20,758 bases of DNA from the IMG/VR virus record IMGVR_UViG_3300025410_000098, positions 1-20,758 of that record; one strand, written 5' to 3'. The notes beneath the pieces were generated by a model that saw nothing but the letters and a program-made list of their open reading frames with translations, did no database searches and was not told the origin of the DNA. Shown here piece after piece: positions 15,650 to 20,628 of this stretch. The position numbers and the translations under genes are program-made. The DNA comes from a virus. Within the stretch, counting starts at the first letter, position 1; every line of letters begins with the position of its first letter.

Positions 15650-17926
15650 TTACATACTTACATTAAGAAGTTTCTGCATTAGGTCTTTGTTGTCTTTAGC
15701 GTGGACAGCCATTTCTGAGCTTATATCTAGATGCTTGGCCATCATATCTTGTAGACCATTGAATGCGTTTGCAATCATATCGCCCTTATCAGACTGTGCT
15801 ACTACTGTTGCACCAGTCTGTGCTCCCAATACTGTAATCAATTGATCAATTTTTTGCATCAATTCTTCGCTACCACCACCTGCTCCTGACGCAGGAGTTC
15901 CGCCAACAGCTTTAACCAATTCGGTATATCCAGTGCTATTAGTGTCTAGCATACCTCCAGTTGTTGGAATGACAAGTTCAGTACCGTGTAGTTTCTCTAA
16001 GAATCCCGATGGGTCACCTGAAGCCCATCCACCGTCAGCCATACCAGACCAACCCTTAAATCCACCGTAGATTGCGCCACCAATACCACCAAGCGCAGCA
16101 CCAATGGCTGTACCAACCAATGGAACAACGCTGCCAACAATAGCACCTGCACCTGCGCCGACAGCGCCATAACCCAATGCTTGCTCACCAGCGCCAATGG
16201 CTTTTTCTTTTGTGGTCATATTAGCCATATGCACACCCTTCATCACAGTGTCAGATGCTTCTTTAAATGTATCTGCCAATAACTTAGCATACGTGTCAAG
16301 ATGACTGCCAGTAAACTTCTCCATCGCAGCCGCTGCTTTTTGAGATTGTGCTGTGATGTTGGCAAAACTTTGTTCTGTACTACCAGTTTTGCCAGCAAGA
16401 TTAGCCTGTGCATCTGCGCTCTTACTGCTGCTGTCTACCATCTCACCTAAATTTTGAGTACTCAACGATAGCATAGAGTTTTGAGTTTGAGAGAATGCGT
16501 CAATAGCTTCACCCGTTGCACCCATACCTTTTGCAAAGTCAGTAGCAGCCCCAACAGATCCTTTGTTTGCTGCGGCGGCTTCTTTTGAAGCGCTAGCCAT
16601 TGTACCAATAGCACCTTTAAAGTCCATAGTACCAGACTTGACACCTTTGGCCATGTCTTCAATCATCTTACGAGCAGGACCCGAAGTATATCCAACAACG
16701 TTAGTAGTACCAGTTTTCATAATCTGATACAACGCTTGTCGTGCTTTGTCAGCGTCTGGGCCCATTTTCTCTAGCGCAGCAAAGCTAGCCTGATACGCAG
16801 TCTTTTGTTTTGCATCCAAATCACTCATCAAACTTGCTCGTTGTGTTTCAGCCGCAGCTTTGTCCATGAGTTTTTTAGCATCTTGACCAGTAATGTCACT
16901 GATAACTTTTAAATTCTTAGCATATTCACGAGTACCTTGGGCAAGCTCTGTGGGAGAAAGATTCTTTAAATCTACCCCAGTACGTTTTAGCTGAGACATA
17001 TAATCAGCCTGAATAGCCATTTGGTCTTCATAGCTGTAACCCAAAGCCAACATTTCGTTACTCAGACTTGCACCGCTTTTACCAATAGTTTTGGTAGCTG
17101 CCGCAAACCCCTTTGCCAGCATTGCAGTACCCTCACCCTGTGAAAATCCTGCTTGTCTCAACGATTCACTTGATGTTGATGATGCCTTAGATAAGGTGGT
17201 AAGACTTAGACCAGCGTCATTGGCAAGATTACGCATCTCTGCCATACCACCAGCAAAACTAGCACCCTGTTTGGTATAATCTTTCAGAGCCTGTGTAGAC
17301 TTCTGAAATTCTTTGGCCATAACTTCGTTTGTGGCTTTTAGGATAGCAGCCGCAGCGTCACTGATACCAGTGACCAGACTGGCTAGCCCACCGACAAATG
17401 CGCCTGCAACAGGACCGAATGCATTAGCAAGTCCAGCAGCAGCATTGGCTACACCGTGAACTGCTGTGTTACCTGCGTCAATCCCAGCATTTAATACAGC
17501 GGCACCAGCAGCAATAGGATTGTTGGCAATGTCATCGTATGATGTTAAGAATGCAGTAGCTACACTGACAGCACTTTTTGCAATACTACCAAACGCACCA
17601 AATATCTCTTTGCCTGCGGCACCCATACCAGTTTTGGTCTTGTCCCACATCTCAGTGCGTTCTTTTTCACGCTTTTTCTTATCCTCAGCGGCCTTTCTCT
17701 CAGACGCAGTGAGTCCTTCTAAAGACTTTTCCCACTCTTTTGCAGCTTTTTGTGCTTCTGCTTCTTGCTTCTTGAGTTCAGCAGAACGTGCCTTTTCTTC
17801 TTTTCTCTTAGTGCCTTCGCTTTTCTGCATTGCTGCTAAGATTGCCAAGAGCGTGGCTTCACTGGCCGCATTTTCTGCTTCTACTGTGCCCACTCCGGGA
17901 ATGTTGACCTTTACTGAACTTGCCAT
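15650..17926 (-). CDS. Tail tape-measure-like protein, 758 residues
   Basis: Tape-measure proteins fill the tail tube, set its length and help DNA entry. The sequence shows the usual parts: a highly charged coiled coil at residues about 36-95; a Gly/Ala-rich hydrophobic zone about 100-195; long helical Ala/Lys/Ser-rich stretches to about 560; a second Gly-rich hydrophobic segment around 580-620; and near residue 630-650 a MADGGWASGDPSGFLEKL segment running into HGTELVIP, very like the GGxxSGPxSGxPxxLHGxExVVP signature near the C-terminus of many tape-measure proteins. In T4 this role belongs to gp29, but homology to gp29 itself is not evident. No ribosome site is visible before the ATG. It is transcribed divergently from gp26, through interlocked late promoters. 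A large internal virion protein is the alternative. Confidence 0.7.
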   Translation of the reverse strand: MASSVKVNIPGVGTVEAENAASEATLLAILAAMQKSEGTKRKEEKARSAELKKQEAEAQKAAKEWEKSLEGLTASERKAAEDKKKREKERTEMWDKTKTGMGAAGKEIFGAFGSIAKSAVSVATAFLTSYDDIANNPIAAGAAVLNAGIDAGNTAVHGVANAAAGLANAFGPVAGAFVGGLASLVTGISDAAAAILKATNEVMAKEFQKSTQALKDYTKQGASFAGGMAEMRNLANDAGLSLTTLSKASSTSSESLRQAGFSQGEGTAMLAKGFAAATKTIGKSGASLSNEMLALGYSYEDQMAIQADYMSQLKRTGVDLKNLSPTELAQGTREYAKNLKVISDITGQDAKKLMDKAAAETQRASLMSDLDAKQKTAYQASFAALEKMGPDADKARQALYQIMKTGTTNVVGYTSGPARKMIEDMAKGVKSGTMDFKGAIGTMASASKEAAAANKGSVGAATDFAKGMGATGEAIDAFSQTQNSMLSLSTQNLGEMVDSSSKSADAQANLAGKTGSTEQSFANITAQSQKAAAAMEKFTGSHLDTYAKLLADTFKEASDTVMKGVHMANMTTKEKAIGAGEQALGYGAVGAGAGAIVGSVVPLVGTAIGAALGGIGGAIYGGFKGWSGMADGGWASGDPSGFLEKLHGTELVIPTTGGMLDTNSTGYTELVKAVGGTPASGAGGGSEELMQKIDQLITVLGAQTGATVVAQSDKGDMIANAFNGLQDMMAKHLDISSEMAVHAKDNKDLMQKLLNVSM

Positions 17927-17979: not shown

Positions 17980-18825
17980 ATGGTTAACCAAGCTAATCCA
18001 TTAGCCAAGCATTTCCGCCAACCCGCACTGTATCTTAGTCTACCCAGCAGAGGAGTGTTTTACCCTGAGGGAACAGTGGAACTATCTGCCACTGGGACTA
18101 TACCCGTTTACCCAATGACAGTCAAAGATGAGTTGGCCTTGAAGACACCAGATGCTTTATTGAACGGTCAAGCAGTTATTGATGTTATTCGCAGTTGCTG
18201 CCCTGGAATCAAGGACCCTTGGGAGATTCCTGCTGTGGATCTTGACCCTATATTCATTGCCATCAGATTGGCAAGTTATGGGAAAGTCATGGATTTCAGC
18301 GCTACTTGTACGCACTGCAAGACAGAAAGCGATTACTCAATAGACTTAAACATGGTTCTAGACAGTGTTGGTAAAGCAGATTACAACAGACCGTTTACGT
18401 TTGATAATCTAGTGTTCAAGTTCAAACCACAAAAGTACAGAAACATCAACAAGATGGGTATGATTACATTTGAACAAGACAAGCTAATACAAAACGTTGT
18501 CAAGAATGAGACCCTGAGCGAAGAACAAAAGATGCTAGAATTCAAAAAGGGATTTGAAAAGATACGACAGTTGAATATCGATACTGTAGTAGACAGCATT
18601 GCCAGTGTTACCACAGAAGAAGGTGTAGTTGTCACAGACCCTGCAATGATTGCTGAGTTCTTGGATAGTTGTAGTCGTCAGATATATGAAAGTATCAAAT
18701 CATCTGTACAAGAACTAACAGATACTTTTAAGATCCAACCCCTACAACTTAAATGCGATAATGAAGAATGCCAAAAACAATTTAGCACTGAGCTGACATT
18801 CGACCATAGCAATTTTTTCGGTTAA
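17980..18825 (+). CDS. 26: T4 gp26-like baseplate hub or tail-assembly protein
   Basis: The 281-residue product resembles the T4 gp26 family (hub assembly). Support: the opening LYLSLPSRGVFYPEGTVELS (17-36), a helical middle region, and two Cys pairs, C110/C113 in ATCTHCKTE and C259/C264 in LKCDNEECQKQF, which may bind zinc. It ends SNFFG. I chose the ATG at 17980, not the upstream in-frame ATG at 17920, because GGAG lies 8 nt before it and the late promoter box lies between the two. The last sense codons include TTT TTC, which with the preceding T form a slippery heptamer (18813-18819), and the -1 frame leads into the next ORF. Position beside the tape-measure gene suits a tail-assembly chaperone. 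Family call recalled, not searched. Confidence 0.82.
   Translation: MVNQANPLAKHFRQPALYLSLPSRGVFYPEGTVELSATGTIPVYPMTVKDELALKTPDALLNGQAVIDVIRSCCPGIKDPWEIPAVDLDPIFIAIRLASYGKVMDFSATCTHCKTESDYSIDLNMVLDSVGKADYNRPFTFDNLVFKFKPQKYRNINKMGMITFEQDKLIQNVVKNETLSEEQKMLEFKKGFEKIRQLNIDTVVDSIASVTTEEGVVVTDPAMIAEFLDSCSRQIYESIKSSVQELTDTFKIQPLQLKCDNEECQKQFSTELTFDHSNFFG
18813..18819 (+). promoter_or_regulatory. Candidate -1 ribosomal frameshift slippery site
   Basis: T TTT TTC in the gp26 frame fits the X XXY YYZ rule perfectly. Two codons after it comes the gp26 stop TAA (18823-18825). In the -1 frame the next codons are CGG TTA AGG CTT TTG CGG ATG, open through to the stop at 19047-19049. A strong stem begins 2 nt downstream, or 6 nt if the AT-rich base of the stem is melted. 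Confidence 0.65.
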
Positions 18826-18898
18826 GGCTTTTGCGGATGGATGAAGCTGAGATTATCAGTTTCATTGAAGAACTAGAATCATCGGCAAAAGCCCTTAA
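18822..18898 (+). promoter_or_regulatory. Two-layer RNA stem downstream of the slippery site
   Basis: TTAAGGCTTTTGC (18822-18834) pairs with 18885-18898 as a 13-bp stem with one bulged C. The 50-nt loop holds a second stem, ATGAAGCTGA (18841-18850) with TCAGTTTCAT (18856-18865), 10 bp with one G-T pair and a 5-nt loop. It can act as a frameshift stimulator. It also buries the AAGG that would be the ribosome site for the ATG at 18837, so it may couple translation of the two ORFs instead. Confidence 0.6.
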
Positions 18899-19049
18899 AC
18901 AAGAAACTCTATCTTTGTGCTGGTATATGCGTGGTGGTGTGACCTATGACGAGGCAATGATGCTAAGTTTAGAAGAAAGAAACATCATCGGGGATATAGT
19001 TAAGAGCAATATGGAAGCTACTAAGAAGTCAGGACTTCCATTCTTCTAA
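18831..19049 (+). CDS. Short ORF at the gp51 position, candidate frameshift extension of gp26
   Basis: The product (about 70 residues) reads MDEAEIISFIEELESSAKAL and then WYMRGGVTYDEAMMLSLEER, ending KKSGLPFF. The middle resembles the short helical downstream part of tail-assembly chaperone pairs. In T4, gene 51 follows gene 26, but T4 gp51 is larger, so orthology is uncertain. Two ways of expression are visible. One is a -1 shift at 18813-18819, joining it to gp26 as a protein of about 356 residues. The other is independent initiation at ATG 18837, with AAGG 9 nt upstream. The TTG at 18831 has too little room for that ribosome site. Hairpins and a likely terminator follow the stop. Confidence 0.65.
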   Translation: MRMDEAEIISFIEELESSAKALKQETLSLCWYMRGGVTYDEAMMLSLEERNIIGDIVKSNMEATKKSGLPFF

Positions 19050-19517: not shown

Positions 19518-20198
19518 TTACAATTTTTTTAAATCGGGGATTATGTTAGGATGCTGTTTAGAGAGCCAATAGTTTATGAGGTCGTATCTGATTAATTTGT
19601 ATTTTAAGTTTAAGTGTTCTGTAATTCGCTGATAAGTTTGTTCAAATTTGTCTTGATTAATAATGTCAGATAGAGTTAGATTTAATACACTGGGATGTTC
19701 TATGTGATTATACGAGTACGCTTTGTTTGTTACAACAAAATCAGTCAATTGATTTTTATTTTTTAAATTTGATAACCAATTTACTATATCGTTTTCGTAA
19801 GAGTTTGCCGGAGTGATTCTTATGATTTTTGCCTGAGAGAAATTTTCTAAAATTTTAGTGACTTCAATTATGCCATGATTGTGATTTGAAAGTATGATTT
19901 GATCGATTTTGCTGTAGTTGCTATTGTATTCGTTGGATAAAGTTTTGTTTATGTTCTCTACTACTAGTTCTAAACGTTTGTCGTTGTTAAGTTTTTTACT
20001 ATTTGAATCCCGAAATATGACTTGTCCATTATCTGCTATACCCAAGAATCTTGCTGCGGGTTTAGCATAATGTAATGAAATCATAGAAGCTATCAAATCT
20101 CCTGCTGCGCCAGCAGTGAAAACAACCCATATACAGGGATCGTCTTTGGTAAAATCTACAAAATCTACAAATTTCTCTACTTCAGGATTATAATCCAT
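19518..20198 (-). CDS. Unknown accessory protein, possibly nucleotide- or sulfate-transfer-like fold
   Basis: The 226-residue protein is not confidently recognised. Near the N-terminus the hydrophobic strand WVVFTAGAAGDLIASMI (24-40) is followed by a Gly-rich turn and helix. This is loosely like the P-loop region of phage sulfotransferase-like proteins, but it lacks a classical GxxxxGK[ST]. Later come an ILSNHNHG segment and alternating helix-strand pattern (AKIIRITPANSYENDIVNWL). The base composition is more AT-rich than in the virion genes (many Asn, Lys, Ile), suggesting separate acquisition. Its ATG overlaps the end of the upstream endonuclease gene by 11 nt, so the pair is translationally coupled. 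No ribosome site of its own is visible. Function should be taken as unknown. Confidence 0.6.
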   Translation of the reverse strand: MDYNPEVEKFVDFVDFTKDDPCIWVVFTAGAAGDLIASMISLHYAKPAARFLGIADNGQVIFRDSNSKKLNNDKRLELVVENINKTLSNEYNSNYSKIDQIILSNHNHGIIEVTKILENFSQAKIIRITPANSYENDIVNWLSNLKNKNQLTDFVVTNKAYSYNHIEHPSVLNLTLSDIINQDKFEQTYQRITEHLNLKYKLIRYDLINYWLSKQHPNIIPDLKKL

Positions 20199-20628
20199 TG
20201 AGTTTGTTTAAAATGTGTGAGCCATGAACACGGACTGAGATTTGTCCGTTATAATAATCTGTTGATTCTAATACTCTGTGTGTAAATTGTTCTCGGGCTT
20301 CAATGTAGCTACATTCTGCCTTTGATTTACAAATATAAAGTATTTCTCTGGTAAAGTTTTCGGTGCCGTGAGTTTGAACGTCTTTGTTTAGTTGATCGTT
20401 TGAGCCATAATAGGTTTGCCAATCAGAGTCGATTTTGCTTCGAATCTTTTGCTTTTTCTTTTTGCCGTTCTTGAGTTTTACTGTTTTATAAGTGGTTTTT
20501 GCGAATTTCGCTAGTTTTTTGCCTATGTACTTTTTGCCAGATAGATTATTTGTGATGAGATAGACGAAACCCACGCAGTCATCGGGAAGAGTTTCCACTG
20601 GTTTTCCTTGAAATATCCATGTCATCAA
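20188..20628 (-). CDS. GIY-YIG family endonuclease
   Basis: The 146-residue protein has the family's defining strands: GFVY at 20-23 and KYIG at 33-36, in GFVYLITNNLSGKKYIGKK. A basic insert (about 51-65, KLKNGKKKKQKIRSK) follows, then DWQTYYGSN (69-77). Candidate catalytic residues are Arg94 in NFTREIL and Glu110 or Glu113 in YIEAREQF. Such free-standing enzymes (Seg-like homing endonucleases) are frequent in T4-like phages, where they cut related genomes and spread with flanking DNA. No separate DNA-binding repeat region is obvious apart from the basic insert. It lies upstream of, and overlaps, the unknown 226-residue gene. Whether it homes, and its target, cannot be read here. The start has no clear ribosome site; Met1 and Met2 are both possible. 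Confidence 0.82.
   Translation of the reverse strand: MMTWIFQGKPVETLPDDCVGFVYLITNNLSGKKYIGKKLAKFAKTTYKTVKLKNGKKKKQKIRSKIDSDWQTYYGSNDQLNKDVQTHGTENFTREILYICKSKAECSYIEAREQFTHRVLESTDYYNGQISVRVHGSHILNKLNGL

Follow-up and report, generated by a model that had tools for sequence, protein, structure and literature searches.

Frameshifted tail-assembly chaperones have been described in lambda (gpG/gpGT) and P2 (E/E') (Xu, Hendrix and Duda 2004; PMC5009743), and a 2016 review still regarded T4 as an exception to tail frameshifting (PMC5009743). According to the PRFect paper, frameshifting is replaced in some T4-like phages by a short gene plus a separate, fused long gene (PMC10885494). As cited by later papers, the chaperones of T4-like phages were identified by Vladimirov, Gautam and Davidson in 2022 (Virology 566:9-15), and the phage Adele paper (PMC12846349) credits the same 2022 work with poly-T frameshift signals in the T4-like genes for the short form of the chaperone (TAC-N).

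Here, we analyzed a window of 20,758 nucleotides that makes up positions 1 to 20,758 of the viral record IMGVR_UViG_3300025410_000098 and that also carries T4-type portal, prohead protease, and major capsid genes. Its gp26-family gene shares with the T4-like gp26/gp51 chaperones, as far as the citing papers present them, the family PF12322, the existence of a short and a long form, and the poly-T signals in TAC-N. However, while the long form of T4 is the product of a separate gene, 51, that of this phage is predicted to arise by frameshifting, i.e., the same pair of proteins would be made in two ways. In the 2022 study of Vladimirov and colleagues, frameshifting is said to have been kept in several T4-like groups, with the T4 group using genes 26 and 51. 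The locus differs from lambda gpG/gpGT and P2 E/E' in its gene order and in combining the heptamer T_TTT_TTC with a downstream stem conserved within its clade. Another related system is the TAC locus of the Vandenendeviridae and Andersonviridae (phage Adele), which has a poly-T signal where TAC-N ends, a -1 frame open in every genome, and a C-terminal part annotated as a hypothetical protein, but the motif there is GTTTTT and the phage families are others (PMC12846349).

Tail chaperones made by frameshifting are already known, also in T4-like phages, and this locus is a further, well-supported case. A first-pass annotation, made from the sequence alone, had suggested that the signal could be widespread and unnoticed; the second part is not supported, as the gp26/gp51 chaperone assignment and T4-like -1 sites were already published in 2022, by the account of the citing text. 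Possible additions to this knowledge are the stem and the wide scope of the survey. On strong comparative evidence, frameshifted tail chaperones are extended to a large group of T4-like jumbo and freshwater phages, in whose public records the two halves stand as unrelated genes, labeled "hypothetical" or "baseplate hub," and the combination of T_TTT_TTC with FFRxRLL provides a simple rule by which many annotations could be corrected.

The gp26 locus and its two predicted products

The zero-frame open reading frame (ORF) (positions 17980 to 18825, plus strand) encodes 281 residues and is the putative TAC-N. It matched PF12322 (T4_baseplate) with an E value of 7.4e-18 (65.5 bits versus a cut-off of 24.5) and PHROG 150 ("baseplate hub") at 1.2e-22. 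Its AlphaFold model had a pLDDT of 90, and the matches in BFVD were predicted T4-like baseplate hub or hub-assembly proteins; a Foldseek search of the model against the PDB found nothing. Against a chaperone, some phage records label the protein as structural or as a baseplate protein.

The ORF ends with the codons AAT TTT TTC GGT TAA, the stop finishing at 18825, and its C terminus in the window is ...HSNFFG*. The heptamer T_TTT_TTC (18813 to 18819, plus strand) lies in the zero-frame phase appropriate for a -1 slip, and the -1 frame has no stop from 18810 to 19049. With a slip at this site, gp26 up to FF (280 residues) would continue directly into RLRLL..., for a product of 356 residues in total. 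The phase of the heptamer, the open -1 frame, and the sizes of 281 and 356 residues had all been put forward in the first-pass annotation and were confirmed. The extension, or TAC-C domain (18813 to 19049, plus strand), is predicted to be read only after the slip, on the strength of its open frame, an invariant arginine (Arg-3; see below), its structural model, and its likeness to gp51. The model is all-helical (pLDDT 91), with a first helix that starts at the slip site; the C-terminal domain found no match in BFVD.

T4 gp26 matched PF12322 at an E value of 8.8e-64 and residues 1 to 201 of T4 gp51 did so at 3.9e-52; since both belong to this family, they are paralogs. T4 gp51 has about 48 further residues at its C terminus, and hhalign aligned the -1 domain to this extension with an E value of 6.7e-5 (score 26.5; probability only 64%), versus E values of 0.29 (score 9.7) for the reversed profile and 0.16 (score 13.3) for the N-terminal part. 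Aligned locally as a whole, the fusion gave only a partial match to gp51. We therefore propose, with moderate confidence, that the -1 domain is similar to this gp51 extension. The labels originally given to the two ORFs, T4 gp26-like and "gp51-position," are in part retained: membership in the gp26 family is upheld, and the link to gp51 is favored by the homology of the C-terminal extension, but the position does not correspond, gene 51 being separate and divergent from gene 26 in the T4 genome, where gene 25 follows gene 26.

In other records the -1 domain has been filed as separate hypothetical proteins with arbitrary late starts (retrieved stretches L009, 3328-3537; L010, 3379-3555; L007, 2615-2737; and others), and PHROG 18291 (unknown function) corresponds to this domain minus its first residues.

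Conservation of the slip site and the downstream stem

A tblastn search in annotated phages retrieved 64 records, from which 18 named phage genomes were examined. T_TTT_TTC was found in phase near the end of gp26 in 16 of them, including RaK2, 121Q, GAP32, CBB, Munch, PA5oct, and Atu_ph07. In the Xanthomonas phage XacN1 the slip site was TTTTTTT, not TTTTTTC, followed by a stable hairpin after a 6-nt spacer, and Microcystis phage Mel-JY01 was the only one of the 18 without a slip site. The 17 phages with a site had a -1 frame open across the slip for about 70 to 80 codons. None of the phage records examined marks a joined, slippage-type gene at the gp26 locus. In a broad alignment of homologs, conservation was nowhere high enough to allow a collection scan, and no relatives were found in prokaryote genomes. 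A scan of viral contigs for relatives found at least 583 encoding stretches.

The comparative set comprised 83 sequences, 62 of them clearly distinct. In all 83, the heptamer was identical and in phase and the -1 frame was open, three of the sequences being truncated where the contig or stored stretch ended. Absence of the heptamer, or stops between the frames, had been named beforehand as observations that would speak against the frameshift; the heptamer was kept throughout the set, and no stop appeared in any of the 83. Phenylalanine codons in these genes were TTT in 632 cases and TTC in 261, and a T preceded phenylalanine in 253 of 893, so that T_TTT_TTC would be expected at about 6% of Phe-Phe pairs from codon usage. 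Against 83 of 83 observed, the conservation of the heptamer is not explained by chance. The -1-frame protein was also conserved, with a mean column identity of 65%.

Downstream of the heptamer, the region from 18820 to 18910 folds with -33.5 kcal/mol (z = -6.15 versus dinucleotide shuffles, and -3.8 versus shuffles preserving the -1-frame protein). The conserved pairing joins a 5' arm (18826 to 18838) to a 3' arm (18881 to 18893), both on the plus strand, and in the window 12 of the 13 pairs are formed, with a G-G mismatch at 18835/18884. The first-pass annotation had counted the stem from 2 nt after the heptamer, or from 6 nt if its AT-rich base opened; this base is a variable extension. As the conserved pairing starts at 18826, the spacer is 6 nt long (GGTTAA, 18820 to 18825, plus strand), consisting of the final zero-frame codon and the TAA stop, and falls within the 5 to 9 nt typical of -1 programmed frameshift signals.

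Across the 62 relatives, 12 of 16 pairs showed changes on both sides, and the covariation score was reached by none of 500 shuffles; when one arm was shifted by a single base, the score fell from 0.198 to at most 0.087. For example, U-A was replaced by C-G at alignment columns 18/83 in nine sequences, a synonymous leucine change being paired with, e.g., a lysine-to-arginine replacement, and G-C by A-U at columns 21/80 in eight. An average of 10.8 of the 13 pairs was kept versus 6.9 ± 0.17 in synonymous-codon shuffles of the -1 frame (0 of 1,000 shuffles). As judged from these comparisons, the stem is conserved beyond the demands of protein coding in most of the 62 distinct relatives. RNAalifold predicted no pairing for the complete set of 62, probably because some lineages lack the stem, and we relied instead on the pair counts and on shuffling synonymous codons. 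When independent double changes were counted on the tree, most went in the expected direction, their number being too small for a significant sign test. The frameshift element matched no family in Rfam.

The stem is missing in about 8 of the 62 relatives, which are divergent, and no significant equivalent was seen in most RaK2-type enterobacterial phages; hence, it cannot be essential everywhere. One tentative reading, which we consider possible although rather doubtful, is that within this phage's clade the stem, placed at a 6-nt spacer, sets the frameshift and at the same time hides the one plausible start for the C-terminal domain, leaving slippage as the sole route to the long chaperone, while sister clades have kept the heptamer but lost or replaced the stem. 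If this were true, the loss of the stem in sister clades would imply evolved changes in the ratio of the long form (TAC-NC) to TAC-N, perhaps tuned to tail length.

Junction signature, alternative explanations, and proposed mechanism

Evidence that the -1 frame is translated through the junction comes from the bases that follow the slip. In the 62 distinct relatives, TTTTTT was always followed by C and then G, while the next base was free (1.90 bits). This free base changes the zero-frame residue (Ala in 25, Gly in 15, Glu in 11, Val in 9, and Asp in 2) and is the wobble position of a -1-frame arginine that was invariant in 62 of 62. An invariant arginine with a free wobble base implies that selection on the -1 frame begins at the slip, before any start codon, and the pattern, read from the alignment, shows translation in the -1 frame through the junction. 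The locus has an overlapping -1 frame under coding selection across the junction and a conserved heptamer of the X_XXY_YYZ type in the zero-frame phase.

This signature bears directly on the possibility that the second ORF is a gene in its own right, expressed through coupled re-initiation from the ATG at 18837, with the stem controlling only the coupling. The window does contain a Shine-Dalgarno-like UAAGG about 9 nt upstream of this ATG and overlapping the gp26 stop (18823 to 18839 together, plus strand), an ATG overlaps the gp26 stop in Phosso, Atu_ph07, and 121Q, and a separate coding sequence is annotated in several genomes. However, the element lies mostly within the stem and is not conserved: only 17 of the 62 relatives had an ATG no more than eight codons from the slip, 31 had none in the first 30 codons, and PA5oct and Paride have a -1 frame without any ATG, GTG, or TTG. 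Re-initiation would also leave the invariance of the heptamer unexplained. Since the coding constraint precedes the start codons and many relatives lack an ATG, it is very unlikely as the general mechanism, and as the explanation of this locus we consider it improbable, although the UAAGG and the ATG at 18837 could supply some of the product in this phage.

Slippage of the RNA polymerase on the run of six T's, by which part of the mRNA pool would gain or lose one base and encode the fusion, is still less probable. The run is present, but slippage of this kind by bacterial polymerase is described on runs of about nine A's or T's, and the helper hairpin as lying upstream, in the nascent RNA behind the polymerase (PMC5009743), whereas here the stem is downstream; moreover, the heptamer ended in C in 83 of 83 sequences, with no extension of the T run, and its exact phase was kept. 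Finally, the heptamer might be the by-product of a conserved Phe-Phe C terminus, followed by a decayed or coincidental frame. Phe-Phe at the slip was indeed invariant in the zero frame across 14 diverse homologs. The fixed choice of T-TTT-TTC codons, far above the expected frequency, the -1 frame open in all sequences with its conserved protein, and the invariant arginine of that frame refute this explanation, to which we assign practically no probability.

A programmed -1 frameshift at 18813 to 18819, as predicted from the sequence, is thus very probably real, and we predict that it produces a short and a long tail-assembly chaperone. Most ribosomes would terminate at the gp26 stop, giving TAC-N with its 281 residues. 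A minority would pause at the downstream stem with TTT in the P site and TTC in the A site; both tRNAs would then slip one base back and re-pair on TTT TTT, and the ribosomes would bypass the stop two codons on and continue in the -1 frame to 19049, giving a 356-residue TAC-NC with a helical C-terminal domain. We infer the efficiency of the shift and the presence of both proteins in vivo. The chaperone function suggested for the pair derives from homology and shared design, and the equivalence to lambda G/GT and P2 E/E' drawn in the first-pass annotation fits what we found. By analogy with lambda gpG/gpGT, many copies of TAC-N and a few of TAC-NC would coat the tape measure protein and recruit the tail-tube protein, and then leave.

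Gene order and neighboring genes

The adjacent gene, on the minus strand (15650 to 17926), encodes 758 residues and is a candidate for the tape measure protein. A gene in the same place in RaK2 was noted by its annotators as similar to tape measure proteins, and there is a homolog in CBB, while profile searches against Pfam and PHROG gave no convincing match. The ORF contains a hydrophobic stretch rich in Gly and Ala, and its C-terminal motif, HGTELVIPTTGG, is tape-measure-like; PHROG places its homologs in family 14121 ("head and packaging"). In the lambda-like arrangement the chaperone gene lies between the tail-tube and tape-measure genes in one operon; here, the candidate tape measure gene is divergent, which counts against a lambda-type module. 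In the virion of CBB, the homolog of the 758-residue protein (CBB_251) is abundant, with 29 peptides, and CBB_250 (gp26) and CBB_249 (a fragment of the -1 ORF) are absent from the examined excerpt of the virion table (PMC5259590). Their absence from that excerpt would fit a chaperone that leaves the particle.

The order in Microcystis phage Mel-JY01 was sheath, tube, gp26-like ORF, small ORFs, and a long ORF. The gp26-like ORF (stretch L025, 1700-1970) ends with a run of seven T's, and the frame of the next ORF, +1 (equivalently, -2), stays open across the junction; a different kind of shift may therefore operate in this lineage.

Shortly after the gp26 locus, the minus strand of the window strongly matches the small-RNA family Polynucleobacter-1 in Rfam (RF01718; 19371 to 19509; 101.8 bits, E value of 2.3e-21). 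Further on, also on the minus strand, is a SegE-type GIY-YIG endonuclease (20188 to 20628; PF19835, E value of 1.5e-34), whose PHROG family, 447, is labeled "NAD synthetase," probably a mislabel.
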